Assembly (NCBI RefSeq): GCF_003550015.1
Contig: NZ_QXEV01000002.1
Coordinates: forward strand, 62,001 to 126,000
From: Anaeroplasma bactoclasticum
GTDB lineage: Bacteria > Bacillota_I > Bacilli_A > Acholeplasmatales > Anaeroplasmataceae
Direction: 5' to 3'
DNA length: 64,000 bases
This document shows, one piece after another, positions 8,158 through 27,958 of this stretch (within the stretch, counting starts at the first letter, position 1; each line of letters opens with the position of its first letter). The position numbers and the translations under genes were made by a program. Under the pieces are notes generated by a model. The model searched no databases. It saw only the letters and a list, made by a program, of their open reading frames with translations, and was not told the DNA's origin.

Positions 8158-8198
8158 AAGCCTAATCGAAGAAGATATCTTCTCGGATAGGCTTTTTT
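8156..8198. terminator. bidirectional terminator overlapping the 3' end of the HTH gene
   Basis: AAAAGCCTA (8156-8164) pairs with TAGGCTTTT (8188-8196), with further pairing inside (CGA/TCG and GAAGATATCTTC). Poly-T and poly-A flanks let it work both ways. It ends recD2 and at the same time encodes the last ten residues of the convergent HTH gene, whose stop codon lies in the stem. Confidence 0.85.
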
Positions 8199-8398
8199 AA
8201 TTCTAATACCTCAGTCAAATCAATTTCTAATATTCTACATATTGCTTGAAGCTCTATAAAGGTAGGCTCAAGTAGCCCATTTTCTATTCTATTGTATCTT
8301 GCTTTTTGAATTGGCACTTTTAGTGCCATTTCTTTTTGTAATAGGCCCTTTGCAATTCTTTTTTGTTTTATGATTTCTGAAAAATTAGTGAAATTCAT
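8162..8398 (-). CDS. XRE-family helix-turn-helix regulator
   Basis: A 78-residue single-domain protein. The HTH_3 fold is clear: IIKQKRIAKGLLQKEMA (residues 9-25), the recognition helix KVPIQKARYNRIENG, and LEPTFIELQAICRILEI. It ends in a short charged tail encoded by the shared terminator hairpin. ATG start behind a weak AAAGGAGTT. It stands alone on the minus strand between recD2 and alaS. The target is not known; autoregulation is usual in such small regulators. Confidence 0.85.
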   Translation of the reverse strand: MNFTNFSEIIKQKRIAKGLLQKEMALKVPIQKARYNRIENGLLEPTFIELQAICRILEIDLTEVLELKKPIREDIFFD

Positions 8399-8525
8399 TT
8401 TAACTCCTTTAAATAATTTCTCTCATTAATTGCATTTTAGCATAACAATTTATGAAAGAAAATGATGTCTTTTTGAGAAATAAATCGGTTACATTTAAAA
8501 CTATGTTTTACTTTTGGTTTTTTTG

Positions 8526-8554
8526 TTGCTATTGAAACTCTTTTTTGATATAAT
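8526..8554 (+). promoter_or_regulatory. promoter of the alaS operon
   Basis: TTGCTA (8526-8531) and TATAAT (8549-8554) are 17 bases apart. A short hairpin (AAGCGCC with GGTGCTT, 8566-8584) lies in the leader just before the ribosome site TGGAGGTAAGAG. No T-box elements are present in this short leader. Confidence 0.75.
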
Positions 8555-8602
8555 CAAAATATTGTAAAGCGCCTATATGGTGCTTAGTGGAGGTAAGAGT
8601 CT

Positions 8603-11227
8603 ATGAAATATATGACTTCAAGTGAAATCCGTCAAATGTGGTTGGATTTCTTTAAATCAAAAGGACACAGTGTAGAGCCATCTGCATCCCTAGTCCCACA
8701 CAATGATCCAACATTATTATGGACCAATGCGGGTGTAACACCATTAAAGAAATATTTTGATGGTACAATGGTTCCTGAAAATCCAAGAATTACTAATGCA
8801 CAGAAGTGTATTCGTACCAATGATATTGAAAATGTAGGTAAGACTGCGAGACACCATACCTTCTTTGAAATGCTTGGAAACTTCTCCATTGGTGATTATT
8901 TCAAGAAAGAAGCGATTGCTTTCGCATGTGAATTATTATTTGACCCTAAGTGGTTTGGCTTTGATCAGGATAAATTATATATTACATACTATACAAAGGA
9001 CATTGATGCTAAAAATTGCTGGATGAGTCATGGCATTAAAGAAGACCATTTAATTCCATTAGATGGTAACTTCTGGGAAATTGGTGAAGGACCTTGTGGA
9101 CCTGATACAGAGATGTTTTATGACCGTGGCGAAAAGTATGATAAGAGAGGTCCTGAATTAATTCGTGACGATATTGAAAATGATCGTTTCATTGAAATTT
9201 GGAATATCGTATTCTCTCAGTTCAATTCTAAGGAAGGTGTAGCAAGAGAAAACTACAAGGAATTACCTTCTAAGAATATTGATACTGGATGTGGTTTGGA
9301 AAGGTTATGCTGTGTAATGCAGGGTGCAAACACAAATTATGACACAGATTTATTCCAACCAATCATCAAGAAGACTGAAGAGATTTCTGGTGTTAAATAT
9401 GAAGGACAGATGGCATTTAAGGTTATTGCTGACCATGTAAGAACTGTAACATTCGCAGTAGCTGATGGTGCAACATTATCCAATGAAGGTAGAGGCTATG
9501 TATTAAGAAGAGTATTAAGAAGAGCTTCTAAATATGCTAAATCAATTGGTATTAATAAGCCATTTATGTCTGAGCTTGTTGATGTAGTTATTCAGATTAT
9601 GGATCCATTCTACCCATATTTACATGAGAAGAAGGAAATTGTTAAGCAAGTAATTACTGCAGAAGAAAAGCAGTTCTTAAAGACATTAGCTGATGGTGAA
9701 AAGAGATTTGCATTAATTGCAGAAGCATCTAAGGATAAGAAGGTTATTTCTGGTTCTGATGCGTTCACATTATATGATACATATGGCTTCCCTATTGAGC
9801 TTACAATTGAGTATGCTGAAGAAAAGGGCTTAACTGTAGATCAGGCTGGCTTTAAGGCTTACTTAAATGAACAAAAGGAACGTGCAAGAAATGCACGTAA
9901 GGATGATCAGTCTATGGGAGGACAGAATGAGGAATTCTTAAACTTCAAGGCTGAATCTAGATTCTCAGGCTATAATACTACAAATCAAAAATCTAAGGTT
10001 ATTGCAATCTTTGGTAATGCAGTAGTATTAGATGAGACACCATTCTATGCATTTAGTGGTGGACAGCTATGTGATAAGGGTAAGCTCGATGACACAGAGG
10101 TTATTGATGTAATTAAGATGCCTAATGGACAGCATTTACATGTATTAGCTGGAGATACTAATCCATTTAAGGTTGGCGAAATCGTTTGGGCTGTTGTAGA
10201 TAAGGAAAATAGAGATTTAACTAGAAAGAACCATTCAAGTGCTCACTTACTTCAGGCTGCACTTCAAAATGTATTAGGTAGCCATGTTCATCAGATGGGT
10301 TCTCAGGTATGCAGTGAGTATTGTCGTTTTGACTTTAATAATTATCAGGCATTAACTGATGAAGAAATTATTAAGGTTGAGGATATCGTAAATGATTTCA
10401 TCAAGGAAGCTCATCCTGTTAAGACTTTAGTATTACCTATTGAAGAGGCAAAGAAGCTTGGCGCTATGGCATTATTCGGTGAAAAGTATGGTGCTCAGGT
10501 AAGAGTTGTTGATATGGGCGTATCTAAGGAATTCTGTGCAGGTACACATGTATATAATACAGAAGAAATTATGGATTTTGAGATTGCATCTGTTGAATCC
10601 ATCGGTTCTGGTGTATTCCGTGCAACTGCAGTTACAGGACCAAAGGCTCATGAGCTTTTAGTTGAATCTACTCAAAATATTCAGGCTACTTTAAAAACTA
10701 TCATAGAGAAGGCTTCTGAATTAGTTAAGAAGGCTAAGGCTGAAGGTATTGAATTAGAAGTATCTTATGTTCCAGCTAATTTAGAAGAAAAGGGTTATCG
10801 TTATATTTTAGCTTTACGTAAGGAAGTAGCTAAGGCTCAAAATGCAGTTAAGGAATTAGAGAAAGAATATAACCAAAAGAAGAGCCAAAGTGCATTAAAG
10901 AGCTTAGACCAGTATGATAGCTTAATTGAAGGAGATAAGCTATTTACTACTGTTGAAGTAAAGGATACAAATCTAATTAAGGATATGGCATCTGCACTTC
11001 GTAATAATAAGAATTTAAATGTAGTATTACTAGCATCTTGTGATGGCGCTAAGGTTACATTTGTATGTGCAGCTAACGCTCCATACGATGCATGTGCTAT
11101 CGTTAAAGAAGCAACTAAGATCACCGGAGGCGGTGGTGGAGGAAAGAAGGATCTAGCTCAGGCTGGTGGAAAAGATTCCTCTAAGGTTAATGAAGCATTA
11201 TTACATGTTAAGGAATTCTTAAAGTAA
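8603..11227 (+). CDS. alaS: alanyl-tRNA synthetase
   Basis: Charges tRNA-Ala and proofreads mischarged Ser or Gly. The 874-residue length is that of the full enzyme. The class II catalytic domain is marked by NAGVTPLKKYF and HTFFEMLGNFSIGDYF; the editing domain by KNHSSAHLLQAAL with the zinc-binding CAGTHV further on; the C-terminal C-Ala domain ends in a glycine-rich GGGGGGKKDLAQAGGKD. Start ATG behind TGGAGGTAAGAG. Its stop overlaps the ruvX start (TAATG). Order alaS-ruvX-DUF1292-trmR matches the conserved arrangement in Bacillus. Confidence 0.98.
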   Translation: MKYMTSSEIRQMWLDFFKSKGHSVEPSASLVPHNDPTLLWTNAGVTPLKKYFDGTMVPENPRITNAQKCIRTNDIENVGKTARHHTFFEMLGNFSIGDYFKKEAIAFACELLFDPKWFGFDQDKLYITYYTKDIDAKNCWMSHGIKEDHLIPLDGNFWEIGEGPCGPDTEMFYDRGEKYDKRGPELIRDDIENDRFIEIWNIVFSQFNSKEGVARENYKELPSKNIDTGCGLERLCCVMQGANTNYDTDLFQPIIKKTEEISGVKYEGQMAFKVIADHVRTVTFAVADGATLSNEGRGYVLRRVLRRASKYAKSIGINKPFMSELVDVVIQIMDPFYPYLHEKKEIVKQVITAEEKQFLKTLADGEKRFALIAEASKDKKVISGSDAFTLYDTYGFPIELTIEYAEEKGLTVDQAGFKAYLNEQKERARNARKDDQSMGGQNEEFLNFKAESRFSGYNTTNQKSKVIAIFGNAVVLDETPFYAFSGGQLCDKGKLDDTEVIDVIKMPNGQHLHVLAGDTNPFKVGEIVWAVVDKENRDLTRKNHSSAHLLQAALQNVLGSHVHQMGSQVCSEYCRFDFNNYQALTDEEIIKVEDIVNDFIKEAHPVKTLVLPIEEAKKLGAMALFGEKYGAQVRVVDMGVSKEFCAGTHVYNTEEIMDFEIASVESIGSGVFRATAVTGPKAHELLVESTQNIQATLKTIIEKASELVKKAKAEGIELEVSYVPANLEEKGYRYILALRKEVAKAQNAVKELEKEYNQKKSQSALKSLDQYDSLIEGDKLFTTVEVKDTNLIKDMASALRNNKNLNVVLLASCDGAKVTFVCAANAPYDACAIVKEATKITGGGGGGKKDLAQAGGKDSSKVNEALLHVKEFLK

Positions 11228-13668: not shown

Positions 13669-16600
13669 TTAGCTATTCTTTTTAAGAATTACAGTTTGAT
13701 ATGGGTTTAAATCAAATGCAGTAGTAATTGTACCACTCATATAGCCTAATGTATCTAAGTATACAGTATATCCTGTATAGCCAGACATATTAATCTTTGT
13801 GCCATTACCATTATGATGCATAATGATGTAATCTCCAATTTCATATTTGAAATATGAGAAATTAGATTGATCATATGCGATAGTATTTCTCTTTGCAGAG
13901 ATTTCGGATAATGGAACAGTAATTGCACCACTAGTCTTAAGGGATACTAGCTTCTTGAAGTTTTGGAACATACTATTATAAGTAACCTTATAAGAATAAT
14001 CTAAATCATTTACTTGATAAGAAGCATTATAAGAATTTTCATTTAAATCCTTAGTTCTTAAGAATTCTTCACCTTCTTGCATGAAGGAAATTCCTTGGCT
14101 TGTAAGCACAATAGCATGACCTAATGTAGATGCCTTTACTGCAGCAGAACCAGTAATACCACAAGTTTCTAGATGGTCTGCAACATTATAATTATCGTGG
14201 CAGGAAATATACGCAACAGTATATTGTACTGGATTTAATCTATCATCATACATATAACCCATAGAACCATTCATAATTCTATATAGATTATCTGAATCAA
14301 TACCAGTAGTAGATGCCCATCCATAAGAGCCACCTGTTCCTACCTGACCAAACATTGCATCACGAATTGTACTATTGAAAGAACCGAAATTACCCCATGT
14401 ACTATAATTAGATAGATTACATAATACAGCTGTAACATAATCTTCGCTAGAAGCTGCCCAAGGCTCACCATATACTACGATATTAGAATTAATCTTAGTA
14501 TGTAAGTTATCTGCAAGAGCTTGCATTGTAGCTACATCATGAATACCCATTAAGTCGAAGCGGAATCCACCAAGCTTGTATTCAGTAGCCCAGAATTCAG
14601 TAGAATCTACCATAAACTTACGGTACATTAAACGATCAGATGCAGTTTCATTACCACAGCCAGAACCATTATATAAATATCCATCAGCTGTATATCTATA
14701 GTAATAGCCAGGTACTAAATGAGTGAAATTAGAACCAGCAGCATCGCTTACATGGTTGAATACAACATCCATGATGATTGTTATTCCAGCTTTATTATAT
14801 TTATATACTAATTCTTTAAATTCACGAATCTTTTCATATCCATCATATGGATTAGTAGAATAAGAACCATCTAAGGAATTGTAATTTAATGGATTATAAC
14901 CCCAGTTAAATGATGGATTAATTTCATCATTTGCTGAATCAAAGATAGGAAGAAGCTGTACAGCATTAACGCCTAATTCTTTGATATGGTCAAAACCAGT
15001 AGTAACTGTCATACCATTTTTTGTATAAGTTGTACCTTCATAGGCAAAGCCCTTGAATGTCTTTTGGTATGCGCTTGGTCCACCCCAAGTAGATGATGAT
15101 GTTAAATCGGCAATATGTGCCTCATATACAACTAAATTCTGTGGGTTGATATCAAGAGTTGAAATATCATCCCATCCATCAGGATTAACAGAATCAAAAT
15201 CAACTACCATACCTCTTAAGCCATTGACACCAGTAGATTTAGCATAAGGGTCAACAACCTCAGCATTCTTGTATAAATAATTTGTTACAACATAAGTATA
15301 ATACTTACCACTTAAATCACCATTAATTGTGTAGCTCCATACACCCTTAGAAGCCTTAGAGCCACCAGTCATTGTGTATTCTGTATAGGAATCAGAACCA
15401 CCTAAATAAGCTGGAGTACCAGAATCATAAATTCTAAGCTTCATTTCTGTTGCTACAGGGCTCCATACTTTGAATGTTGTTTCACTCTTAGAATAAATTG
15501 CACCTAATTGGCCATTATAGCCATATACAGAATTAAAGGATGATAAATCATATAAATCCCACATAGAAGCTTTTCTTGAGCCTTTACCATCACTGAATGT
15601 AACATTTAATTCATAAATGTCATTCATAGTTGGGAATGTAGTGCCTAAATTATAGTATAGGTATGTATTACCATAATCTGTTGCCTTAGGGTCAGATGCA
15701 ATTGTACCACTAGATACTAGCTCTTCACCATTTCTAGTTACTGTGAAGGAAATAGATGCTTCTGCAAGTCCATATTTTAAGAAATATGAACCAGAATCTT
15801 GATAGATGCAGAAATATGAAATATTTGCACCCTTAGATTCAGCAATAGAGCTATATACTCCTTCAGAACCACCAACAAAGTATACATGATAATAATTATC
15901 ACTATCTTGTTTTAAATCAGATAAAGAGAAATATTTATTTGTACCATCTTGGGCAGACCAGTTATCTGCACCTTGACATTTAATAATTAAACCGAAGGAA
16001 TCATTACCAGCAAAGCTAGAATATGGTACTGTATAATATCTACCAAAGGAATCACTTTGGGTCATAGTATATAAATTAGCACCTAAATTATCTCCCCATA
16101 ACCATAAGGAATTAATTAATGTGTAATTATTATCTGCTCTATGATAATGAATCTTTAAGCCTGCAATAGTAACTTCATCAATATATCCACAAATACTACA
16201 TACATTATAGTATTTATCATTCTCATAAACTAATTCGAAATCATGCTCGTCCTTATCAGATATAGCACTACAACCAGAAACTAGACATTCATGGAAGTGA
16301 TATGCTGAACTATAAGAATATTCACTACTATAGTTATGGCTATGACCAGTCATAGGAATAATCTCTGTATAAGTTTCACCACATACTGTACAAGTATATG
16401 TTCTTACGCCTTCTGTAGTAGAAGTTGCAGGAGTAGTAACCTCTGCATTCCATGTATGAGTATCACAAACTGCAGATGGAATTGAATACTTAGACCATGT
16501 GCCACCACCATATGGTGTTGAAGAACCATCACAATAATATGCATTTGTAGTTACTCTATCTACGGTAATATCCTCTGTTTGCTGTCCATTATTACCATTA

Positions 16601-18573
16601 TTAAAGATAATGTATTTATATGCGTTTATATTATAAGCATAGTAATAAATTCCATCTCCATCGCTATTAGTACCAACATAAGTCATAGCTGTACCTGGCC
16701 ATGTAGGTGTTAATTTATCAGCATCAGAATTATAAATATAAACACAAACTGTACTCCAACCCTTATTATTTGTGAAGTAAACACCATTTGTACCTAATGC
16801 TTCAATTGTTTTAACTTTAGTTTCACCACAATTAGAGCATGTATAAGTTGCAGAACCACTAGAAGTTCTAGTTGGTGCAACAACTATAGGGCTAGTATCA
16901 TAATTATGACCAATAGCATCTAATACCATTTCTGTTTGATCGATAACCTCACCACAAACAGAACAGCTTACTGTATGAGTAGATATACCAGAATGTTCAC
17001 ATGTAGGAGTTAAAGTTATAGCATCACTAACTTCTAATGTATGGCTACTCTTTGGTAGTGTAGCAGTATAAGTTTGAGTAGTAAATGATGAGCTTGCGAA
17101 AGCCTTAGTTGTATAAACTGCTGTACCTGTAGCAAGGCAGGTAGGGGCCTTTGTAACTGTATAGCTTGCAGCTACAGATTCATACTCTAATGCTTCACCA
17201 CAAATAGAGCATTTAACTGTTGCTTCACAGGTTAAATGATCACTACTCCAAGTATATGTAGGAGTAGATGGGTTATGTGTATGAGCAAGTACAGGAATTG
17301 CTTCAACCTTTGTTTCGCCACATACTGTACAAGTATAAGTCATTTCACCTGGTGTGGATTCTGTTGGAGCCTTAGTTTCAACTCCACTATTCCATGTATG
17401 TCCTGTTGCAGGGATGATTTCAACCTTAGTTTCACCGCACCCTGAATCTAGACATGTATATGTTCTATAACCGACCTCTGTACAAGTAGGAGATTTTGTT
17501 ACAATACCACTATTCCAGTGATGATTATCTAAATTAGATGCTGGAATATCATAATATGCCCATGTGCCTACAGTATATTTACCTTCGGAATTAGTTTCTC
17601 CAAGATAATATGCATTATTAGTTGTCTTATCTACAGGAATATCTACGGTTTGAGAGCTATTATTGTTGAAAATAATATATGAATACTTTGATAAATCATA
17701 ATCAATATAATAGATTCCTTGTCCATAGGAATTATTGCCAACATAAGTCATAGCTGTACCTGGCCATGAATTATATGTATTTGAAGCGGACTCGTAGATA
17801 TAAGCATATACAGTATCCCAATATTGTCCATTTGTAAAATAAACTCTTGTTGTTCCAAGCTTATCTATAGTTAATGTTTTTTCATTACCACATACTGTAC
17901 AAGTATATGTTACAGAACCATCGGTTAATCTTGTTGGAGCAACGACAGAAGAATCATCATAGGAGTGATTATTTGTCTTTGGAATTGTTAATGCCTCAAG
18001 TGTAGTTGCATTACCATGAGCATCATAATATGTACTATTTTCTGGATTATAATAATACTCATAATTACCACTATCTCCACAAGTAGGAGATGTTGCCTCT
18101 ACATGATTATATGTATTTGGCATTGGTATTAAATATTGAATTGTGTTTGTTTTTTCTGTTGTTCCATCGACATAGTTATATTCGAATGTAGCACTTAATG
18201 TCCAAAGTGGGAATGATTTTGAAAGCTCTGTAATAGTCATTACAGCATAATAAGTGTCATCCACTTTATCATATGCGCCAATGACTTCATCATAAACAGT
18301 AGTTAAAGATACTTCAGTTTCTTTTGTATCATTTCCAGCTTTACTTAATTGTAATTCGACATCAATTTTAGTAATATCGTCTAGGGTTGCACCATCCGAT
18401 AAAACAAATTTACTTACATAACGAATTTTATCGTTTGTTACACTTTCCTGTTGCTCTAATAGAATATCCACCTTATCTATTAATGTAGCAGAAGCAAATG
18501 CTTTAGATATACCAAATATGGCTATAAGAACAAATGAAAGTGATAGTATTATTGGTTTAAAAAATTTCTTCAT
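13669..18573 (-). CDS. pulA: secreted multidomain pullulanase (type I, GH13_14-like)
   Basis: Hydrolyses alpha-1,6 branches of starch and pullulan outside the cell. 1634 residues. Order: signal peptide 1-28 (cut near AFA-SA); the locus-specific N-terminal domain about 30-150; CxxC repeat modules (YTCTVCG) about 215-235, 360-460, 520-590 and 715-745; CBM26-like modules at 242-335 and 597-690; a CBM41-like domain about 803-905; CBM48-like about 1020-1105; catalytic barrel from about 1145. The pullulanase signature FNWGYNP is at 1222-1228. Predicted nucleophile Asp1340 (GGFRFD), acid-base Glu1370 (VVYGEPW), stabiliser Asp1460 (SCHDNYN). No sortase motif or membrane anchor at the C terminus, which ends in a beta domain. 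Start behind AGAGGTGAACT. Last gene of the locus, probably transcribed with the two amylases upstream. Confidence 0.93.
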   Translation of the reverse strand: MKKFFKPIILSLSFVLIAIFGISKAFASATLIDKVDILLEQQESVTNDKIRYVSKFVLSDGATLDDITKIDVELQLSKAGNDTKETEVSLTTVYDEVIGAYDKVDDTYYAVMTITELSKSFPLWTLSATFEYNYVDGTTEKTNTIQYLIPMPNTYNHVEATSPTCGDSGNYEYYYNPENSTYYDAHGNATTLEALTIPKTNNHSYDDSSVVAPTRLTDGSVTYTCTVCGNEKTLTIDKLGTTRVYFTNGQYWDTVYAYIYESASNTYNSWPGTAMTYVGNNSYGQGIYYIDYDLSKYSYIIFNNNSSQTVDIPVDKTTNNAYYLGETNSEGKYTVGTWAYYDIPASNLDNHHWNSGIVTKSPTCTEVGYRTYTCLDSGCGETKVEIIPATGHTWNSGVETKAPTESTPGEMTYTCTVCGETKVEAIPVLAHTHNPSTPTYTWSSDHLTCEATVKCSICGEALEYESVAASYTVTKAPTCLATGTAVYTTKAFASSSFTTQTYTATLPKSSHTLEVSDAITLTPTCEHSGISTHTVSCSVCGEVIDQTEMVLDAIGHNYDTSPIVVAPTRTSSGSATYTCSNCGETKVKTIEALGTNGVYFTNNKGWSTVCVYIYNSDADKLTPTWPGTAMTYVGTNSDGDGIYYYAYNINAYKYIIFNNGNNGQQTEDITVDRVTTNAYYCDGSSTPYGGGTWSKYSIPSAVCDTHTWNAEVTTPATSTTEGVRTYTCTVCGETYTEIIPMTGHSHNYSSEYSYSSAYHFHECLVSGCSAISDKDEHDFELVYENDKYYNVCSICGYIDEVTIAGLKIHYHRADNNYTLINSLWLWGDNLGANLYTMTQSDSFGRYYTVPYSSFAGNDSFGLIIKCQGADNWSAQDGTNKYFSLSDLKQDSDNYYHVYFVGGSEGVYSSIAESKGANISYFCIYQDSGSYFLKYGLAEASISFTVTRNGEELVSSGTIASDPKATDYGNTYLYYNLGTTFPTMNDIYELNVTFSDGKGSRKASMWDLYDLSSFNSVYGYNGQLGAIYSKSETTFKVWSPVATEMKLRIYDSGTPAYLGGSDSYTEYTMTGGSKASKGVWSYTINGDLSGKYYTYVVTNYLYKNAEVVDPYAKSTGVNGLRGMVVDFDSVNPDGWDDISTLDINPQNLVVYEAHIADLTSSSTWGGPSAYQKTFKGFAYEGTTYTKNGMTVTTGFDHIKELGVNAVQLLPIFDSANDEINPSFNWGYNPLNYNSLDGSYSTNPYDGYEKIREFKELVYKYNKAGITIIMDVVFNHVSDAAGSNFTHLVPGYYYRYTADGYLYNGSGCGNETASDRLMYRKFMVDSTEFWATEYKLGGFRFDLMGIHDVATMQALADNLHTKINSNIVVYGEPWAASSEDYVTAVLCNLSNYSTWGNFGSFNSTIRDAMFGQVGTGGSYGWASTTGIDSDNLYRIMNGSMGYMYDDRLNPVQYTVAYISCHDNYNVADHLETCGITGSAAVKASTLGHAIVLTSQGISFMQEGEEFLRTKDLNENSYNASYQVNDLDYSYKVTYNSMFQNFKKLVSLKTSGAITVPLSEISAKRNTIAYDQSNFSYFKYEIGDYIIMHHNGNGTKINMSGYTGYTVYLDTLGYMSGTITTAFDLNPYQTVILKKNS

Positions 18574-18649
18574 AGTTCACCTCTTCTAAGTCTTAATATA
18601 ATATTTAATTTGTTATCGATAATAATAAGACCTCCTTTATGAAAATAGT

Positions 18650-18712
18650 ACATTGGAATATATACACGATGATTCATGTACATATTCCAATGTAGGGACC
18701 ATTGGCCCCTAC
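18650..18712 (-). repeat. double inverted repeat between amylase and pullulanase genes
   Basis: Bases 18650-18661 (ACATTGGAATAT) pair perfectly with 18682-18693, and GTAGGG (18692-18697) pairs with CCCTAC (18707-18712) around a small CCATTGGC loop. On the minus strand the short hairpin comes first, 15 bases after the upstream amylase stop, then the long one. No T-run follows, so it is more likely an mRNA-stability or processing structure than a terminator. Confidence 0.55.
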
Positions 18713-18726
18713 ATCTTCATATTGTC

Positions 18727-21700
18727 TTATTCTCCAACAAAAACGTAATCGAAGGAATCGTTATAAATATAACAATTTGCATCTGTTGGAATGGTCAAAT
18801 CAGCTGTTTGAGAAGAACCACTATTGCTGAAGATAATCTTTGTATATCCCTCAGTATTCTTGTAAGAATAAATCTTATGGCCATTGTAAGTTAATCCAGT
18901 ATCTGTCATAGCAATGCCTGGCCAAGCATGATTTTGATTTCCCTCTCCACCTTCACCTTTCCATGCATATGCTGTTACATTTGCCCAATCCGAAGTATTA
19001 ACGAAATAGATAGTAGTAGAATCAACCTCTATTGTATATGTTTCGCCACAAGTTGAGCAAGTAGCAGAAAGGTTAGATTTTGATACAATTACATTACCTT
19101 CATGAGTATGACCTGTTGCAGGAATTACTGTATCAGATAATGAAATCTCAACAGTACAATATGAATCAGAATAATACTTACCATTCTTGATGTAATATAG
19201 AATATTTCCATTAGCTGTACAGCTTGGTTCAACTCTTGGAACAGTTGTAATAGAATTATCTACCATTGGTAATGTTTCATTCTTTGTATTTGTATACGTA
19301 TTACCATTAAATGTAACAGTAGCTGTGTATACTCTTGTACCTGTTGTAGTAGTAGTTGGTTCTACAGTGATTTCACTTGTGATTGTTGCATCCTTTGTAA
19401 TTGTCTTACCACAATTAGCACAAGTTAGCTTTAATGTTGCAGCAGAATATCCATTCCAAGTCCATACTGGGTTTGTATATTTGTGATCGCATGCATCAGC
19501 TTCTTCAACACGGATTCCAGCATAGGATGATGCATTATATACATAAGAATAATCTGTGTAGATAGTTAAATCATCTGTTTTACCAGAACCATTATTGAAG
19601 ATAATAGAAGTATATCCATTAGGATTTACCTTGAATAAGCCTGTTGTAGAATCTTCAGTAATAGTTACTCCTGGCCATTTAGCATTATGTGTTGCTTCAT
19701 CTATCCACATATATGCATTAACTGTAGACCAAGATCCTGTATTATCAAAATATACATATCCATCATATGGAATTACCTGATATGTTGTATCAGCTTCAGT
19801 TAATGGAATTAATACAGTTTGATTTACTCCATTACCAAAGGCAACATAATGATATGTTTCTAGGTATTCTACAAAATAGCTAGATGATGAAGAATCATAT
19901 TCCATGGAAGCTAATGTAGGAGTACCATTTGTTGTTTGATATAGATATGCATTTAAGCTAGACCAGCTCTCTGGCTTTACAAAATGAACGGTATAAGTCT
20001 TTGGAGCAGCTACCTTAGTATAAGTAAAGCTTTGAGTTACTGGATTACCATTCTTATCGATTGCAGTAATCGTAACAGTCTTAGTTTGGCCTACTTCCAT
20101 ATCGTAACCGAAGGATAATGTAGCACCAGAAGTTACAGAATAGTTATGTCCATCAATGGTTAAAGTTGCAGAAGTAGCATTTCTAATAATGTAAGTTGCA
20201 TCCATTGTTGCAGTATAGAATGTTGTAGGTGCATTAGAAGAGATGGAGCATGCGCCCTGAGTTGAACCTGTATTGTTGTATACAACTGCAATTTCAGAAT
20301 CTCCAACTGTACCACTTAATGTACCATTAGATACTGTGAATGTATTGCCAGTTACATAATCCTTATATGTACCATTTGCCATATGTGGAACAGAAACAGA
20401 ACAATTACCTGCACCACCTACGATTACAACACCATTTTGAGTTGGATTTGTATTTACAAATCTTTCACATACATCATAGCCGTTAGAGCTATAGCAAGAT
20501 TCATCTGCATCTAATTTAGCATAGAAGTTATGGAATTTGTTAACAGCTCCAACGCAGTCATAGGACCAACCATTTAAGCATGCAACACTTCCAAGCTTAG
20601 ATTTTTCATAATCCTCAAATCTTGCACAATATAAAGTACAGAAATCCTTTCTAGCACCTAAAAGTGCATAGGATCTATTAATAATTTGTACGCTCTTATT
20701 ATGAGTATCCTGTGTACCCATGTAGTTATCATGAGATTCAGCCCATGTAACCATATTTTCTTTATAATCGATGTAATTATTTCCATCAGCACCATTGAAA
20801 GAACCAAAACCAGTTCCTCCGCTTTCAACGATACCATGACCTAAGCCTGAATCTGTAATAGCTACACCATGTTTTGTATACCAGCCTAAGCTTCTATCGG
20901 TACCAGGTCTATTTAAGATTTCGCCATATGCATAGATATCTTTACCTAGTGCATTACCTGCAGCAAAGGCTCTTCCCATTACATTTGGCCAGAAATCAGA
21001 TGCAAAGGATGGATCATCATCTGGAGTTTCAATGTGCTTAGCAGCATCAAATCTAAATCCATCAACACCATAGCTAATTAATTCTTCTAGATAATCAGCA
21101 ACAGCATCCTGTACAACTGGATCTGATGTATCCAAATCCATCATACCAATATTACCCTGTGTAACATTGCCTGGTTGGTCATTATCTTGAACTGCATATG
21201 GATGGAATTTTAATGTATTTTTGTAGTAATATGTGTTAATTGCAGGAGTAGTAGAAGCATTAGCTGTACCTGGATCAACTGGTGTACCAGAGCCATATGC
21301 CCAAACCTGACCTGTGTATGGAACATAACCTGCCTCACCAGGTTTTGCATTTCTATCTGCAGGAGCACTCATACCTGCAATTTCCCATTCATAATAATAT
21401 GCGCGCTCGCATAATGAATCTGCAACCCACTGGTTACCTAAGTGGTTTGCAACAACGTCAACTAAAACCTTAACGCCGTAAGAATGTGCCATTTGACACA
21501 TTGCCTGGAATTCCTCAGGTGTACCTAGTGCATTATCACCAGTATCATCGATTGTGAATGCAGCTGGCTGATAATATGCCCACCAAGAGCCCTTAGCTGT
21601 TTGACCAACTGTAGCTTCCTTACATACCTGTACAGGTGATGTTTGGATAGCTGTAAAGCCTTGGTTTGCAATATCAGGTAAGAAATTCATAATTTCATTA

Positions 21701-22263
21701 TAGCTCCAGCAGAAGCACTGCAATATTTGTCCATCCTGTACGCTATCTGCGAAGCATTCTGAAGTAGTAACAAATTCACCAGAACCAGAAGATTTTAAAG
21801 CATATGCTTCTGGAATCTTGTAATTCACTGTATTGGTTTCCTCGTGTGTTCCATTAGAATAATGATATTCAAATGAAGCACTAAGATTCCATCCTGGATA
21901 GGATTGTGCAACTTCTGTGATTGTAAATACAGAATAATATGTATTGTCAATCTTTGCCTTTCCATTTGTACCAGTTACAGTATCGTAAACTGAAAATAAT
22001 TCTTTTTCAGTTGTTAATGTAGTCTCGCCCGCTTTACTAAGAGATAATTGCATATCGATCTTAGTAATATCATTTAAAGTAACGCCATTAGATAATTCTA
22101 ATGTACTAATATATCTTATTTTATCGTTTGTTGTATTTTCCTGTTGTTCTAGTAATACATCTACATTATTTGCAGTAGTAGTTGCTGCATTTACAGAAGT
22201 AGTACTAAAGCTAACTAAAATAAGACCTGCCGAAATAATAAATAACTTTTTCTTCCTATTCAT
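18727..22263 (-). CDS. secreted alpha-amylase (GH13_28-like) with three CBM26-type modules
   Basis: Endo-acting alpha-1,4 glucanase outside the cell, 1178 residues. Signal peptide 1-26 (VNA-AT); shared N-terminal domain about 30-150; catalytic domain about 165-600, close to Bacillus AmyE in its motifs (FTAIQTSPVQ, DVVANH at 269-274, GFRFDAAKHIETPDD). Predicted nucleophile Asp406, acid-base Glu448 (AYGEIL), stabiliser Asp512 (WAESHD). An AmyE-type all-beta domain ends near 662. Then an Ig-like linker domain about 675-750 and starch-binding modules about 757-835, 838-905 and 1082-1178, with a CxxC-containing stretch (CANCGKT, CSTCGET) between them. Start ATG behind AAGGGGAATTCAGG. Gap to the preceding amylase gene is only 37 bases. 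Confidence 0.93.
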   Translation of the reverse strand: MNRKKKLFIISAGLILVSFSTTSVNAATTTANNVDVLLEQQENTTNDKIRYISTLELSNGVTLNDITKIDMQLSLSKAGETTLTTEKELFSVYDTVTGTNGKAKIDNTYYSVFTITEVAQSYPGWNLSASFEYHYSNGTHEETNTVNYKIPEAYALKSSGSGEFVTTSECFADSVQDGQILQCFCWSYNEIMNFLPDIANQGFTAIQTSPVQVCKEATVGQTAKGSWWAYYQPAAFTIDDTGDNALGTPEEFQAMCQMAHSYGVKVLVDVVANHLGNQWVADSLCERAYYYEWEIAGMSAPADRNAKPGEAGYVPYTGQVWAYGSGTPVDPGTANASTTPAINTYYYKNTLKFHPYAVQDNDQPGNVTQGNIGMMDLDTSDPVVQDAVADYLEELISYGVDGFRFDAAKHIETPDDDPSFASDFWPNVMGRAFAAGNALGKDIYAYGEILNRPGTDRSLGWYTKHGVAITDSGLGHGIVESGGTGFGSFNGADGNNYIDYKENMVTWAESHDNYMGTQDTHNKSVQIINRSYALLGARKDFCTLYCARFEDYEKSKLGSVACLNGWSYDCVGAVNKFHNFYAKLDADESCYSSNGYDVCERFVNTNPTQNGVVIVGGAGNCSVSVPHMANGTYKDYVTGNTFTVSNGTLSGTVGDSEIAVVYNNTGSTQGACSISSNAPTTFYTATMDATYIIRNATSATLTIDGHNYSVTSGATLSFGYDMEVGQTKTVTITAIDKNGNPVTQSFTYTKVAAPKTYTVHFVKPESWSSLNAYLYQTTNGTPTLASMEYDSSSSSYFVEYLETYHYVAFGNGVNQTVLIPLTEADTTYQVIPYDGYVYFDNTGSWSTVNAYMWIDEATHNAKWPGVTITEDSTTGLFKVNPNGYTSIIFNNGSGKTDDLTIYTDYSYVYNASSYAGIRVEEADACDHKYTNPVWTWNGYSAATLKLTCANCGKTITKDATITSEITVEPTTTTTGTRVYTATVTFNGNTYTNTKNETLPMVDNSITTVPRVEPSCTANGNILYYIKNGKYYSDSYCTVEISLSDTVIPATGHTHEGNVIVSKSNLSATCSTCGETYTIEVDSTTIYFVNTSDWANVTAYAWKGEGGEGNQNHAWPGIAMTDTGLTYNGHKIYSYKNTEGYTKIIFSNSGSSQTADLTIPTDANCYIYNDSFDYVFVGE

Positions 22264-22300: not shown

Positions 22301-25300
22301 TTATGGAATATAAATGAATTGGGTAGCTAAGTAATTTGTGTCATATGCATTGAAGTAGCAATTAACTCCTGCTAGAACAGTTATATCATCAGTTTTTTGA
22401 GTTGCGTTTGTACCTGAGTCAAATATTACACCTGTATAATCGGTTAAAGAACCACTAGCAAATGTATATGAATATACTGTATATGTTACTCCATTATATG
22501 TTACTGTACCACCCTTAGTCATTTGGTTTCCTGGCCATGTAGTATTACTAGTTCCACCCCAATAATGGATGTTTACTATAGTATTCCAGTCATCACCCCA
22601 AGTTGAATTTACTAAATAGTAAACAGTAGAAGTATTTACTGTATATTCAATTTCTTCATGACAAACAGAGCATGTAACTCCATCAGCTGCACTATATACA
22701 CCTGATGCAACTGTATGATCAGTCTTAGCTAGAGTTAATGCCTCTAGTGTTGTTTCATGGTAGCTTGCATCAAAATATGTGTCACAACCAGCACAATAGT
22801 AGTATTCTAAATTACCTGTAGCCTGGCAAGTTGCTGCCTTTGCATCTGTATGAGCATAGGTATGAGTATGAGAACCATCATCTACCTTAGTGTCAGTATA
22901 TGTATGACCGCCCTTAGTAACTGTAGCAGTATAAGTAGTTACGTTACCTACTGTTTCACTTGTAATAGTAGCAGTAACTTGATCCTTATGAGATGCATCA
23001 TTTTTGCAAGTAAATGAAGCTGTTGCCTGGCTGAAGCCAACCCAGCTCCATTCTGGTGCACTTGCATAATCGTAATTATGACCTAATGCAGGAATTGTTT
23101 CTGTATATGTATTTCCACAATTAGAACATGTATAAGTCTTTACTCCTGCATTCTCACATGTAGGAGCAGTAGTAACAACACCTGCATCATAGGAATGAGA
23201 TGCACAAGAATTCTTTACGATATTATAGTAAATTGTTGCAGCTGTTCCATTGTAATCATATTTAGAAATATATGCATTGAATGGTAAATCAGCTGTTTGG
23301 GCAGAACCATTATTGAAAATGATATGGTCATAAGCTGAGCTATATGTTACAGCATATAATCCAGTAGAATCTTTTGAAATAGCAGTTCCAGGCCATGCAG
23401 CAGCTTCTGTTGATGCACTATCATTCCAAATGTATGCTTTAACTGTAGACCAACCAACAGAATTAATGAAATGGCTAGTTGAAACTGTATCAGCATAATA
23501 AGAAGCATTTGTATGGTCTAATTCTAAATCCTCACTCTGGTATGTACCATCACTAAAGATTATATATTCATAATCATCAAATGAAGTGAATGTAGCAGAA
23601 TAAGTATCGCCTTCAGAACTCATTAGAACTCCAGGCCATGCAGCATTCTTATCAACATCACCATACATATATGCATAAATAGTATTGGCCCAGCCTTCAG
23701 GCTTAGTTAATGTTACTGTATAAATTGTAGGTGCAGGAATTCTTCTATAAACAAACTGCTTTGTTGTTTCTACATTGTTACTATCCTTTGCCTTAATAGT
23801 TACAGTAAGTTTATCCGAAACATCCATGTAGTTACCGAATGTTAATGTAGCACCAGAAGTGATGTTATAAGTTTCACCATCAACAGTTAATGTTGCAGAA
23901 ACTGCATTTTTAATTGTATATGTAGCAGTTTCAGTTGCAGTATAGAATAAGTCTTCAATATCATCTTCAATAGATACTGTACCTGTTCCGGATTCTGAAT
24001 ATAATACAGCAATGCAAGAAGAATCCATAGTACCAGATACCTTACCATTTGCAACAGTAAATGTATTTCCAGATACTAAGTCTGTATATGTACCATTTTT
24101 CATCTTATCAGGTACTTCTACATTAGATACGGAAGTTCCAGTACCAGCATTAACTAATACCATACCAGATTCTGCACTATTGTATCTAACTACCATAGCA
24201 AAATTAGAACTATTAGAAAGGTATTCAGCTTCAGTACCCCAGTAATTTCTAAACTTATTTACAGCAGCTACTTCCTTAAGCTTATAAGCATCAGAACCCT
24301 TTGCGCCTAACTTTGTTTGGCAGCTTGTCCAAGCAGAAGTGCCGGTTGTATCTGTAGGTCTTGCTAAATATAATGCTTTAGCTCCATTTCTAGAGCCCAT
24401 AATTGCATATGTCTTGTTGATATTATAAATAGATGTATCAGGTGATTCATGCTCATCGTTTGCATATGTATCATGAGATTCAGCCCAAACGATACAATGC
24501 TCACCGCTTGAATAGCCAGTTGGGTTATAAGAAGAAGATGCAGCAGCAGTACCTGAATTGAAGTTTTTTCTTAATTCATTACCACACTTATTAGCGATAA
24601 CATCCATGTATGGTAAATACCAATCATAGCTTCTACCACTACCACAGCCATTTAAGATTTCGCCATAGCAGTATAATTCTTGACCCTTATTTTTTGCATA
24701 AGTTTTTGCTTGACCAACTACATTTGGCATAAAGCTAGATGAACCGCATGGCTCACTAGGATTATCTGTTTCAATGTGCTTGATTGCATCAAATCTAAAG
24801 CCATCAACACCAAGGTCAATGTATTCTTTTAATAAAGATAATACTCTACCTTGAACAACCTCGCTATGAGTATTTAAATCAGGTAAACCGATATTACCAT
24901 TAGTTGTATGTGAACTATCTGTAGCAGAACTTCCTGTTTCTGAATGTAATAATGCTCCACCGGATAGTGTACCATTAGTACCATAAATTGCTGGTTCATA
25001 TCCTGCAACACCACTTGATAGGGAAGTTGCATCACCTGCTAAATGGTTTGCTACAACATCGACAATTACTTTAATTCCTTTGTTGTGAGCAGCAGTAACT
25101 AATTTTGCTAAATTAGTCTTAGTACCGATTGCATTTTGACAAGTATCAGGAGCAATACAGAAGCCTAGTGGTTGATATAATTTCCACCAACCTGCCTTAG
25201 CTGTATCTCCACCACTCCAATAATCCTTTTGAGGCTGCATTGGAGATGTTTGAACGGTAGTATATCCAGCATTCTTAATGTTATCAAGATTTTCCTTGAT

Positions 25301-25870
25301 TACATCCATATGCCAGTTCCATGCATGGAAAATATTACCATTTGTAATTGAATCAGCTGTGAAACAATCAGCAATAGAGGAGGATTCCTCAAATGATCCA
25401 CTACCTGATGTATAAGTGTATTTTGCTGGAATATCATAGTAAACAGTATTTGTTGTTTCTACTGTTGAATCTGCGTAGACATACTCAAATGTTGTTCCTA
25501 ATGTCCAACCCTTAAAATCTTGTAAATCTGTTAATGTATGAACAGCATAATAAGTATTTGATGACTTATTCTTGCCGTTTGTTCCTAAAACTTCATCATA
25601 TACAGAAGTAGTAGTTAAACTAGCATTCTTTGTGGCCTCCCCAGCCTTAGATAATGTGAAGTTTAAATTAATCTTCGTAATGGAATTTAAATCCGTTACT
25701 GGAGTCATTGTACTGATAAAACGAATTTTGTCTCCCCCAGTATTCTCTTGTTGCTCAAGAGATACATCAATTTGATCTGCATATGTAGCAGCTGCGTTTA
25801 CAGCAACACAGCTTATCCCAGCTACAGCAAATGCAGTTGAGAATAAGATAAGAGATTTTACGTTTTTCAT
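22301..25870 (-). CDS. secreted alpha-amylase (GH13_28-like) with CBM26-type modules
   Basis: Extracellular alpha-amylase, 1189 residues from the ATG at 25870, which has AGAGGTTTATT before it; longer frames run back into the peptide gene and lack a ribosome site. Signal peptide 1-26 (VNA-AA); shared N-terminal domain about 30-148; catalytic domain about 168-545 with Asp361 (GFRFDAIKHIE), Glu404 (CYGEIL) and Asp467 (WAESHDTYAND); AmyE-like C domain to about 625; Ig-like domain about 640-708; starch-binding modules about 714-795, 798-880 and 1080-1189; CxxC modules (YTCSNCG, TCSVCHE) in between. It is 10 bases downstream of the 43-residue peptide gene. Catalytic part is closest within the window to the lipoprotein amylase at 28075. 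Confidence 0.93.
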   Translation of the reverse strand: MKNVKSLILFSTAFAVAGISCVAVNAAATYADQIDVSLEQQENTGGDKIRFISTMTPVTDLNSITKINLNFTLSKAGEATKNASLTTTSVYDEVLGTNGKNKSSNTYYAVHTLTDLQDFKGWTLGTTFEYVYADSTVETTNTVYYDIPAKYTYTSGSGSFEESSSIADCFTADSITNGNIFHAWNWHMDVIKENLDNIKNAGYTTVQTSPMQPQKDYWSGGDTAKAGWWKLYQPLGFCIAPDTCQNAIGTKTNLAKLVTAAHNKGIKVIVDVVANHLAGDATSLSSGVAGYEPAIYGTNGTLSGGALLHSETGSSATDSSHTTNGNIGLPDLNTHSEVVQGRVLSLLKEYIDLGVDGFRFDAIKHIETDNPSEPCGSSSFMPNVVGQAKTYAKNKGQELYCYGEILNGCGSGRSYDWYLPYMDVIANKCGNELRKNFNSGTAAASSSYNPTGYSSGEHCIVWAESHDTYANDEHESPDTSIYNINKTYAIMGSRNGAKALYLARPTDTTGTSAWTSCQTKLGAKGSDAYKLKEVAAVNKFRNYWGTEAEYLSNSSNFAMVVRYNSAESGMVLVNAGTGTSVSNVEVPDKMKNGTYTDLVSGNTFTVANGKVSGTMDSSCIAVLYSESGTGTVSIEDDIEDLFYTATETATYTIKNAVSATLTVDGETYNITSGATLTFGNYMDVSDKLTVTIKAKDSNNVETTKQFVYRRIPAPTIYTVTLTKPEGWANTIYAYMYGDVDKNAAWPGVLMSSEGDTYSATFTSFDDYEYIIFSDGTYQSEDLELDHTNASYYADTVSTSHFINSVGWSTVKAYIWNDSASTEAAAWPGTAISKDSTGLYAVTYSSAYDHIIFNNGSAQTADLPFNAYISKYDYNGTAATIYYNIVKNSCASHSYDAGVVTTAPTCENAGVKTYTCSNCGNTYTETIPALGHNYDYASAPEWSWVGFSQATASFTCKNDASHKDQVTATITSETVGNVTTYTATVTKGGHTYTDTKVDDGSHTHTYAHTDAKAATCQATGNLEYYYCAGCDTYFDASYHETTLEALTLAKTDHTVASGVYSAADGVTCSVCHEEIEYTVNTSTVYYLVNSTWGDDWNTIVNIHYWGGTSNTTWPGNQMTKGGTVTYNGVTYTVYSYTFASGSLTDYTGVIFDSGTNATQKTDDITVLAGVNCYFNAYDTNYLATQFIYIP

Positions 25871-25880
25871 AATAAACCTC

Positions 25881-26012
25881 TTACTTACCACCGAATAAAT
25901 CTGATAGTGAACTAGATCCTCCACCATTTGTAGAGCCGTTGTTGGATACTGCAATAATATCCTCTAAATTTACCTTAATGTCTTTAATTTCTGGTCTTTC
26001 GTAATTTTTCAT
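25881..26012 (-). CDS. 43-residue Y-x-x-P peptide upstream of amylase
   Basis: A 43-codon minus-strand gene, ATG at 26012 and TAA at 25881, with AAAGGAGAACAAAAC before the start. It begins MKNYERPEIKDI, continues with LEDIIAVSNNG, and ends in a Gly- and Ser-rich tail (NGGGSSSLSDLFGGK). It has no signal peptide. It is clearly related to the 41-residue product at 27783-27908: both have M-K-x-Y-E-(R/K)-P-x-I-K near the start and D-(I/V)-I-A-V-S-N before the variable Gly-rich end. Ten bases separate its stop from the amylase start, so the two are co-translated. Conserved head plus variable tail resembles a precursor peptide; the Y-x-x-P spacing recalls lasso-peptide leaders, but no modifying enzyme is in the window. 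Confidence 0.8.
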   Translation of the reverse strand: MKNYERPEIKDIKVNLEDIIAVSNNGSTNGGGSSSLSDLFGGK

Positions 26013-26051
26013 GTTTTGTTCTCCTTTTTGTCTTTTCTTCCCAAAAAAATT

Positions 26052-26378
26052 TTAGGTATGTAATTCTCCCCAGTCATCTCCATCATCCCATGAGCCATCA
26101 TTAGCAACACCTGATGTAGATGTTTCTACTCCCGTAGTAGTCTCTGTTGTTGTTTCCAAGGTACTAGTTGTAGTCTCAATTGGACCTGTTGTGGTTTCCA
26201 AAGTGCTAGTTTTAGTTTCATCGGAAGTAGTGGTTGGTACTTCTGTAGTAGTTTCTATAGAAGTGGTGGTCGATCCGTCTCCCTTAGTCGTTTTGGTTTT
26301 GTCTGATGTATTGCTGTTACAAGAGACTAAAGCTAATAAACCAATCAGACATGGAAATAAAATAAATTTTATTTTCAT
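26052..26378 (-). CDS. Thr-rich lipoprotein with acidic tail
   Basis: 108 residues. The N terminus is a lipoprotein signal (FLIGLLALVSC-type; lipobox LVSC, lipidated Cys at about 20). Residues about 25-90 are a low-complexity stretch dominated by TTT, with repeated units such as STLETTTGPIETTT, suited to an extended, perhaps glycosylated, stalk. The last 15 residues are acidic and aromatic (SWDDGDDWGELHT). No enzyme domain. It is the first gene behind a promoter and precedes the 43-residue peptide and the amylase by 39 bases. A role as a surface tether or docking site for the starch enzymes is inference. Confidence 0.75.
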   Translation of the reverse strand: MKIKFILFPCLIGLLALVSCNSNTSDKTKTTKGDGSTTTSIETTTEVPTTTSDETKTSTLETTTGPIETTTSTLETTTETTTGVETSTSGVANDGSWDDGDDWGELHT

Positions 26379-26399
26379 ACAAAAAAACTCCTTTGGTTA

Positions 26400-26432
26400 A
26401 TTGTACCATATAACAACAGTGAAATGAATATG
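26400..26432 (-). promoter_or_regulatory. promoter with locus-specific upstream element (lipoprotein-amylase operon)
   Basis: On the minus strand the -10 box is TACAAT (26405-26400). Fourteen bases upstream lies CATATTCATTTCA (26432-26420). The same element with one change, at exactly the same spacing, precedes the peptide gene at 27908. The -35 position falls inside it and is poor, suggesting an activator-dependent promoter. Confidence 0.6.
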
Positions 26433-26485
26433 AAAGGAGCGTGTAAAAAAATGAAAATATCTTGCAATTTTGTGAAAAAATAATG

Positions 26486-26513
26486 AAAAAGACTTACCTA
26501 AAGGTAAGCCTTT
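26486..26513 (-). terminator. terminator of the starch-binding protein gene
   Basis: On the minus strand GGCTTACCT pairs with AGGTAAGTC (one G-U), loop TT, and is followed by TTTTTCATTATTTTTT. It lies about 15 bases past the stop codon. Confidence 0.85.
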
Positions 26514-26526
26514 GTAAAATTATATT

Positions 26527-27768
26527 TTATTCTGGAATGTATAGATATCCGCCAACTTGATTTTTATCATCTCTCCATTCGAAATAGAATGCATTATAGT
26601 TTTCGTAATCGGATAATTTGATATTTACTGTTTGTTTTTTCTTCCAATCGTCGGATTCACCATTATTAATGATAATCCATTCTGCGTTTTCAGGAATAGT
26701 CACTTTATAAACCTCTTCTCCTTGGTCGTTTGTGTGGTCATATGTCATTTCTTGTCCTGGCCAATTACCTGTTAAGTTAATATCCTCTGTGCCATTATTA
26801 TACCAAATATGAGCATGAAGATTTGTCCAATCAGTCCAGTTCCTTGTCACATATAGTACAGTCGTATCAAAGCTTACACTGTAGCCACAGTCAGAACAGG
26901 AAATTGTTCTCGTTGTTCCTGATGTAGAACCAGATAGATTATGTGGTGTTTCATCAAAATCATCACCACAAATTGTACAATGACTCCAATGTCTATTATC
27001 GTTATGTTGAGTTACAATATTATGCTCTGTAGTTGGATGTGCATATGCATTTCCATCCTGCTGAATATAATAATTGTCGCTTGAGGAAACTGGCATATCG
27101 CCTGATTTATGGGTGTCAGAACCATCACTGAATACTACTGTAGTGAAGCCTGCATCTGGCATATAGTCGAAATAATAAATACTATTGTCAGCATCATATA
27201 GATGCATTTGTTCACCAGGGAAGTTTGCATTTTGAACATTTGTGCCAAACATATAGTAGTACAAGTTTGTTCCCCAATCATCGTATTTTTGAACAAAATA
27301 CTGTCTCTTTCCACCAATTAACCAAGCAGAAGCAGTTGCATCCTCGCTAGAACCATCTGCATAGTTATAAGTGAAAGTAGGAGTGATTCTCCAACCAGCT
27401 TTAGAATCGATATTTGTAATAGTTGCTACTGCATAATATGTACCATCAACTTTTGCTTTTCCATTTTCACCAGAAATGGATTCATAAACAGTGGTAGTTG
27501 TTTGAGGAATTGAATCTTTATCTTGTTCCCCATTTTTAGTTAGTTTAAAGTTCATTTCAATACTTGTGATATCATCTAGAGATTTACCATTAAGTTCCAT
27601 TGTACTTATGAAACGCATAGAAGTACCAGCTGCATTCATCTGATATTCAAGTTTTGTGTTAATAGTATCTGCGTCGCTTGGACCAGCTGCATTTACTGTA
27701 GCTGCGAAAGTAAATGGTAATGCAAGCGCACTTACGCCTAAAATAGCTGTTTTAATCATTTTATTCAT
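26527..27768 (-). CDS. secreted non-catalytic starch-binding protein
   Basis: 413 residues. Signal peptide 1-27 (VNA-AG), then the N-terminal domain shared with the three large enzymes (about 35-150; MRFISTMELNGKSLDDIT, TYYAVATIT, GWRITPTFTY). Two CBM26-type modules follow: about 155-240 (NFPGEQM, TTVVFSDGSDTHKSGD) and about 302-413 (NWPGQEM, WIIINNGESDDW), separated by a CxxC module (CTICGDDF, CSDCGYS). No glycoside hydrolase domain is present. The start at 27768 is chosen because AGGGAGGA lies eight bases before it; the frame is open a little further. It follows the 41-residue peptide gene by 14 bases. Probably helps hold starch near the cell. Confidence 0.85.
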   Translation of the reverse strand: MNKMIKTAILGVSALALPFTFAATVNAAGPSDADTINTKLEYQMNAAGTSMRFISTMELNGKSLDDITSIEMNFKLTKNGEQDKDSIPQTTTTVYESISGENGKAKVDGTYYAVATITNIDSKAGWRITPTFTYNYADGSSEDATASAWLIGGKRQYFVQKYDDWGTNLYYYMFGTNVQNANFPGEQMHLYDADNSIYYFDYMPDAGFTTVVFSDGSDTHKSGDMPVSSSDNYYIQQDGNAYAHPTTEHNIVTQHNDNRHWSHCTICGDDFDETPHNLSGSTSGTTRTISCSDCGYSVSFDTTVLYVTRNWTDWTNLHAHIWYNNGTEDINLTGNWPGQEMTYDHTNDQGEEVYKVTIPENAEWIIINNGESDDWKKKQTVNIKLSDYENYNAFYFEWRDDKNQVGGYLYIPE

Positions 27769-27782
27769 GTCAATAATCCTCC

Positions 27783-27908
27783 CTAGCTCCATAGATCGTC
27801 AGCACTGATTACAAGTCCATCAGTACCTGCTCCACCATTAGATACAGCGATAACATCGACAAGCTCTAATTCGTCTTCTTTAATCATCGGTTTTTCGTAT
27901 TTTTTCAT
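27783..27908 (-). CDS. 41-residue Y-x-x-P peptide upstream of starch-binding protein
   Basis: 41 codons, ATG at 27908 and TAG at 27783, behind AAAGGGTGGAGAGT. It begins MKKYEKPMIKEDE, continues ELVDVIAVSNGG and ends in an acidic tail (SADDLWS). It is a paralogue of the peptide at 25881-26012 and holds the same place, just upstream of a secreted protein with the shared N-terminal domain. The frame is open upstream, but that part overlaps the promoter. No signal peptide, no Cys. Function unknown. Confidence 0.8.
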   Translation of the reverse strand: MKKYEKPMIKEDELELVDVIAVSNGGAGTDGLVISADDLWS

Positions 27909-27958
27909 ACTCTCCACCCTTTCTGTTATGTAGTTTAAAAAATACTCTATGATATTTA

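Follow-up and report, generated by a model that had tools for sequence, protein, structure and literature searches.

With fairly high confidence, we propose that two small genes in the starch locus of Anaeroplasma bactoclasticum, encoding peptides A and B, are precursor genes of an RRE-guided, RiPP-like system whose sole enzyme cassette lies elsewhere in the genome. By analogy with characterized clusters, the product is probably an exported RiPP-like peptide that is phosphorylated and glycosylated. The peptide family and its conserved head, the cassette, the association of the two, and the secreted partners can all be read from the sequences. The individual parts are known RiPP parts; their combination, the dispersed precursors, and the fixed leader spacing are undescribed in the literature searched, in which we found no paper on NTP_transf_5 with PqqD or on the gene combination.

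In the window, that is, the whole stretch of 64,000 nucleotides that was analyzed, the genes concerned run along the minus strand in the order peptide B, CBM26 protein, lipoprotein, peptide A, CBM26 amylase, second amylase, and pullulanase-like protein (Table 1). The preliminary description of this DNA had reported two small genes of 43 and 41 codons, each in front of a secreted protein sharing a common domain. Their sequence, length, ribosome sites, and spacing are all accurate, with 10 bases (peptide A) or 14 bases (peptide B) between the stop codon and the ATG of the next gene, and the common domain is indeed there, in four copies in the window. Aligned over 40 aa, peptides A and B show 48% identity (E = 1e-11). 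The Thr-rich lipoprotein gene situated between the two modules is a member of a recurrent unit. A 37-aa ORF at 18570-18683, 5' of the pullulanase gene, was considered and is not a member of the peptide family. Elsewhere in the window, two tandem paralogues on the minus strand (54306-55181 and 55183-56037) combine, by eye, a RhuM/Bro-like N-terminal part with a C-terminal HDRF-type, phospholipase-D-like part.

Table 1 Features of the starch locus in the window and of the enzyme cassette on contig C14 of the same genome
Feature	Location	Strand	Basis
Predicted precursor peptide A, 43 aa, MKNYERPEIKDIKVNLEDIIAVSNNGSTNGGGSSSLSDLFGGK	25881..26012	minus	ORF reading
Peptide A parts: predicted leader with Y4-x-x-P7 and invariant Ser23; C-terminal tail LSDLFGGK	25881..26012	minus	
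Peptide A Shine-Dalgarno AAGGAG	26021..26026	minus	sequence reading
Predicted precursor peptide B, 41 aa, MKKYEKPMIKEDELELVDVIAVSNGGAGTDGLVISADDLWS	27783..27908	minus	ORF reading
Peptide B parts: Y4-x-x-P7, Ser23, C-terminal tail SADDLWS	27783..27908	minus	
Peptide B Shine-Dalgarno GGGTGGAG	27912..27919	minus	sequence reading
Small Thr-rich lipoprotein, 108 aa, C-terminus DDGDDWGELHT; one of the peptide-adjacent lipoproteins with an acidic-Trp-Gly tail	26052..26378	minus	
Secreted alpha-amylase, three CBM26 starch-binding modules, directly 3' of peptide A	22301..25870	minus	
Ig-like partner domain, amylase end nearest peptide A	25415..25792	minus	
Secreted CBM26 protein, 413 aa, directly 3' of peptide B	26527..27768	minus	
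Ig-like partner domain, CBM26-protein end nearest peptide B	27301..27684	minus	
Second secreted amylase; partner domain 21799-22185; without its own peptide gene	18727..22263	minus	
Pullulanase-like secreted protein (CBM26, PUD, CBM48, amylase); partner domain 18112-18492; without its own peptide gene	13669..18573	minus	
NTP_transf_5 nucleotidyltransferase	C14 (L080) 5991-7067		
HprK-fold kinase	C14 (L080) 7078-7887		
PqqD/RRE	C14 (L080) 7878-8141		
S24/S26 (SipW-like) protease	C14 (L080) 8134-8547		
ABC exporter	C14 (L080) 8544-10127		

Judging by codon selection on peptide A and by the number of family members in the genome, peptides A and B are real genes. Between peptide A and its closest relative, in a genome of the same genus (G019), there are 15 changes in 27.8 synonymous sites and 3 in 101.2 non-synonymous sites; dS is 0.95, dN is 0.03, and dN/dS is about 0.03 (binomial p = 4e-8), far from the ratio near 1 in close relatives that the preliminary description had named as evidence against the peptide frames. 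In this pair the tail is constrained as strongly as the head. In most other peptide pairs, too, dN is lower than dS, and between more distant members the tails are less constrained than the heads. Pfam and NCBIfam searches with peptides A and B returned no family, and a search of 40 relatives with peptide B recovered seven members in the genome of the window itself and dozens in congeners. A survey of small ORFs in relatives, together with RRE and domain co-occurrence, had been suggested at the outset as a check; it yielded a family that tracks a PqqD cassette, and an Ig-like domain, described below, that is almost confined to peptide-bearing genomes.

The family has a constant layout, with a conserved and selected 23-residue head followed by a constrained but family-variable tail of 10-25 residues, as expected of a ribosomal precursor with a conserved leader and a variable core. 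The head motif Y-x2-P-x15-S, with Ser at Y+19, is present in 81 of the 82 collected peptides. That figure overstates how invariant Y, P, and Ser are, as the profile that retrieved the members had itself been made from peptides of this kind. A profile-free scan of small YxxP ORFs near cassettes, mostly from other lineages, also placed Ser at Y+19 highest of 23 spacings (18 occurrences, against at most 13 at any other distance). The residue two positions before the invariant Ser is usually Ala (A-x-S). In twelve of the 82 peptides, neither Ser nor Thr occurs beyond the invariant Ser so that, if the kinase described below targets the tail-proximal part in all members, this residue would be the sole common target. 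The tails are usually acidic with Trp or Phe close to the C-terminus, the last eight positions containing Trp or Phe in 70/82 peptides and an acidic residue in 71/82. YxxP is the recognition motif bound by lasso RREs (PMC12710340). The earlier proposal of a precursor-peptide layout with a Y-x-x-P spacing like that of lasso leaders gains support, as the genome carries a PqqD-type RRE and the family tracks its cassette.

Two further groups of similar peptides were also observed. In Blautia/Lachnospiraceae (L181, L182), YxxP peptides lie at most 20 bases from PqqD, with Ser at Y+20 and tails ending in GGTNTTIE. At the class level, family f24 (L254, L255, L257, L258, L263), which is absent from the Anaeroplasma branch, comprises related peptides with Cys in the core, such as GSDTMCGGEMW, which may indicate a different core chemistry.

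The cassette was first seen in genome G010, in which the gene of one member of the family (L052) immediately precedes those for a kinase, PqqD, an S24/S26 peptidase, and an ABC transporter. The genome of the window has a single PqqD match, located in the cassette on contig C14, and the seventh of its peptide genes is 7 kb from this cassette. The PqqD protein belongs to PF05402 and, among solved structures, is closest to the lasso B1 proteins TbiB1 and TfuB1, so the pairing of a YxxP leader with a B1-type RRE known from lasso systems is found here as well. The kinase has no Pfam match, and its AlphaFold2 model (pLDDT 92) gave HPr kinase/phosphatase and PEPCK as best Foldseek matches; a P-loop is combined with the HprK/PEPCK fold, and in the kinase alignment GTGKST is near-invariant and NDDK invariant. 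The nucleotidyltransferase matches PF14907 (E = 1e-31). The kinase and the PF14907 enzyme both fall below every curated NCBIfam cut-off. The protease (PF00717) has invariant Ser29, His66, and Asp81, the SipW/ER-type pattern; it is near TIGR02228 and resembles archaeal and SipW signal peptidases, with scores for the TIGR02228 and SipW models below cut-off. A profile search of a collection of genome contigs with the kinase alignment found no relatives, and one with the S24/S26 alignment found 80 loci, which gave the taxa named below. The preliminary description had remarked that no RRE, protease, or cyclase accompanies the peptides. This is correct for the window but not for the genome, where an RRE and a protease are encoded on another contig; its cyclase part holds genome-wide too, with neither a lasso cyclase nor a lasso B2 protease present. 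The partner enzymes were invisible in the window because they are encoded on contig C14.

The association between peptides and cassette was surveyed in the order with a profile of 39 peptides and a profile of 11 PqqD proteins, run independently over the same 134 genomes, most of which are incomplete MAGs. Both were found in 33 genomes, peptides only in 4, PqqD only in 13, and neither in 84 (Fisher p = 2e-16); the genus-collapsed table is 11/0/4/11 (p = 2e-4) and that of the host genus alone is 11/2/1/10 (p = 3e-4). In the class beyond the order, PqqD is present in 20/25 peptide genomes, whereas the overall figure is 40 in roughly 310 genomes (p about 3e-16, with an approximate denominator). 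All of these p-values are too small because the genomes are related, but the physical linkage and a case in Paenibacillus are independent of relatedness. Where both were present, the independent searches placed a peptide within 8 kb of PqqD in 25 of the 33 genomes. In Paenibacillus doosanensis (L174), the 33-aa peptide MKKQYEKPQIEIEEYELTNICSLSGGLGDGEDF overlaps the kinase start by one base and is followed by PqqD, S24/S26, and nucleotidyltransferase genes. Among the peptide-only genomes, one (G066) has a contig that ends inside the cassette adjoining its peptide, and two (G003 and G022) have peptides with no PqqD detected. Co-occurrence and linkage together provide the RRE expected to accompany a RiPP precursor, and binding of the leader by this RRE is predicted.

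Cassette loci were found in Anaeroplasma, Anaeroplasmataceae, Acholeplasmatales, Erysipelotrichales, Paenibacillus, and assorted Clostridia; the first five groups, and a few of the Clostridia, also have family peptides on the contig of the cassette. Thirteen genomes of the order have PqqD without a detected peptide, and loci L230-L240, from such genomes, are kinase, PqqD, and protease cassettes without a recognized family peptide, the precursors being either divergent or off-contig. In Ruminococcus, including R. bromii (L175, L176, L177, L179), genes for PqqD, an S24/S26 protease, and a PF14907-like nucleotidyltransferase adjoin with no YxxP precursor detected close by, and scattered precursors are possible at these loci; R. 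bromii is a known starch degrader. As no Y-x2-P-x15-S peptide was found near Clostridial cassettes such as that of Ruminococcus bromii, we do not extend our claim to them.

The neighbors of the peptide genes are consistently secreted. An exported-protein gene, called by a simple hydrophobicity rule, is the immediate same-strand neighbor of 69 of 77 assessable peptides, compared with 20% of other genes. In the host genus this neighbor often carries an Ig-like domain, almost without exception at the end nearer the peptide gene, that is, N-terminal when the protein follows the peptide gene and C-terminal when it precedes it. The domain occurs in 13 genomes of the order, 12 of them peptide-bearing (p = 5e-7), and most copies adjoin a peptide gene; two further copies lie in the gene run of the window, and one stands apart on contig C35 of the same genome. 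A link between the peptides and the common domain, suspected from the start, is thereby strengthened for the host genus, where the domain usually adjoins a peptide gene. The domain has no Pfam family, and a search of solved structures gave nothing convincing; its model is an Ig/FnIII-like beta sandwich with only generic Foldseek matches, so we assign it no binding function. Many peptide genes also have a small lipoprotein nearby that ends in an acidic-Trp-Gly tail, and Trp is present in the last 14 residues of 22/33 lipobox neighbors compared with 55/507 other genes. In families f3 and f5, peptide and cassette are retained without the Ig-like domain, beside other secreted proteins, which makes the domain and the lipoprotein lineage-specific partners and not core parts.

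Other arrangements of neighbors were noted. By eye, some peptide genes abut the stop codon of large secreted EndA/NucM-type nucleases (L022:3366-3485, L022:6944-7063, L028:6315-6434, L046:4515-4637), and two such tandem nuclease-peptide pairs are in the genome of the window itself. One peptide tail, TGWLPWV, is almost identical to the C-termini SWLPWV of one lipoprotein and two large secreted proteins (L051:113-235, L045:4515-4865, L102:6117-8144, L106:5509-7581).

From homology of the parts we infer the following route, covering binding, phosphorylation, further decoration, cleavage, export, and a role at the surface. PqqD would bind the YxxP head and present the peptide to the kinase, which would phosphorylate a Ser; the likeliest target is the invariant one at Y+19, which would mark the end of the ruler. 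The nucleotidyltransferase might then add a sugar or a nucleotide to the phosphate, by analogy with pseudomycoidin. Cleavage close to the A-x-S motif by the soluble SipW-like protease is predicted to free the tail from the leader, and the ABC transporter to export it; the genes for both are present, and their activity is predicted. In the host genus, the probable site of action of the mature peptide is the cell surface, where its partners would be the Ig-like domain of the co-encoded secreted protein and the small lipoprotein. It is conceivable, although we hold this only tentatively, that the exported peptide is a surface-assembly element joining a secreted enzyme, through its Ig-like domain, to a stalked lipoprotein, with one cassette serving several cargo loci. 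The acidic-Trp-Gly tail of this lipoprotein resembles that of the peptide itself. Anaeroplasma is wall-less, and sortase or wall-binding anchors are unusable in its relatives. The literature on starch in Anaeroplasma was not informative.

Could the ORFs instead be spurious, or lie in short duplicated stretches of regulatory DNA that are open by chance? Their small size and the lack of a Pfam or NCBIfam family would fit, but codon-level selection in the closest pair refutes this explanation, dozens of homologues and the cassette linkage also contradict it, and we give it almost no weight. Unmodified translation-coupling leaders, or small chaperones for the common domain with an indirect link to the cassette, would account for the position of A and B 10-14 bases before a start codon and for a partner domain that usually adjoins the peptide gene. 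However, many members lie at the 3' end of a secreted-protein gene, f3 and f5 have no domain yet retain peptide and cassette, and YxxP correlates with the RRE. The coupling leader, one of the roles suggested in the preliminary description, is disfavored by purifying selection on the tail and by the many peptides that follow, and do not precede, the secreted-protein gene; taken together, leaders or chaperones seem quite improbable to us.

The leader motif and the RRE nearest TbiB1/TfuB1, as well as an HprK-like kinase and a nucleotidyltransferase like those of the paeninodin and pseudomycoidin clusters, would also suit lasso precursors of a degenerate or split lasso pathway. Against this, no Transglut_core3 B2 protease scored above cut-off in the 134 genomes, the sole Asn_synthase gene of the genome is a full-length ordinary AsnB that starts with MCSILG, and the cassette genes include no cyclase. 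A lasso system is rejected since the B2 protease is absent, above cut-off, from the order genomes searched and the lasso cyclase from the genome of the window, which leaves a degenerate or split pathway only a very slim chance. Finally, the cassette-matured peptides could be classic bacteriocins, with the lipoprotein as dedicated immunity protein (SpaI/NisI-type) and the secreted hydrolases simply co-regulated. Small lipoproteins adjoining many peptide genes, the ABC exporter, and the multiple variable tails all agree with this idea, whereas this lipoprotein is missing from f3 and f5, selection on the acidic tails is purifying, not diversifying, between close relatives, and the consistent neighbor is an exported protein, with a specific Ig-like domain in the host genus. 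We therefore consider bacteriocins unlikely.

With peptides A and B read as precursors of an RRE-guided, RiPP-like system, the kinase/PqqD/S24-S26/nucleotidyltransferase cassette can be matched with partner genes and with precursors whose leaders contain a fixed ruler (Y-x2-P-x15-S). This suggests that lasso-type tailoring enzymes act on linear peptides too, and that RiPP precursors may be encoded far away from their enzymes and be linked instead to genes for secreted enzymes that degrade polymers. A role of the peptide at the cell surface also becomes directly testable.

Among known systems, SynChlorMet shows a weak likeness, of PqqD to ScmD (TIGR04248) and of the kinase to ScmC (TIGR04249), but the scores are far below the curated cut-offs and there is no radical SAM among the cassette genes, so membership is rejected. 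The G010 kinase is a weak match to HprK-related kinase A (TIGR04352; E = 8e-4) and has the same fold; however, it scores 18.6 bits against a cut-off of 200, and the kinase of the genome studied here has no match. Also among the closest known systems are the paeninodin and pseudomycoidin lasso clusters of Firmicutes, which share the YxxP leader, a discrete B1/PqqD RRE, an HprK-like kinase, a nucleotidyltransferase, and an ABC exporter (PMC8498205; PMC5067487). In lasso precursors, the C-terminal Ser is phosphorylated by HprK homologues, and in pseudomycoidin the nucleotidyltransferase adds hexose to the phosphate (PMC8498205). Unlike those clusters, the system described here has no lasso cyclase and, in place of the B2 transglutaminase-like protease, a SipW-like S24/S26 protease; several precursors are scattered away from the cassette, and an invariant Ser at Y+19 is found where lasso leaders have a conserved penultimate Thr. 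Of the almost 8,000 proteins matching the discrete-lasso model of RRE-Finder, about 4,000 co-occur with a lasso protease and cyclase (PMC7470986). The cassette PqqD would fit among the remaining proteins of that model, which were left uncharacterized, whereas here the cassette PqqD is assigned a family of precursors with a constant leader spacing, as well as a set of accompanying genes.
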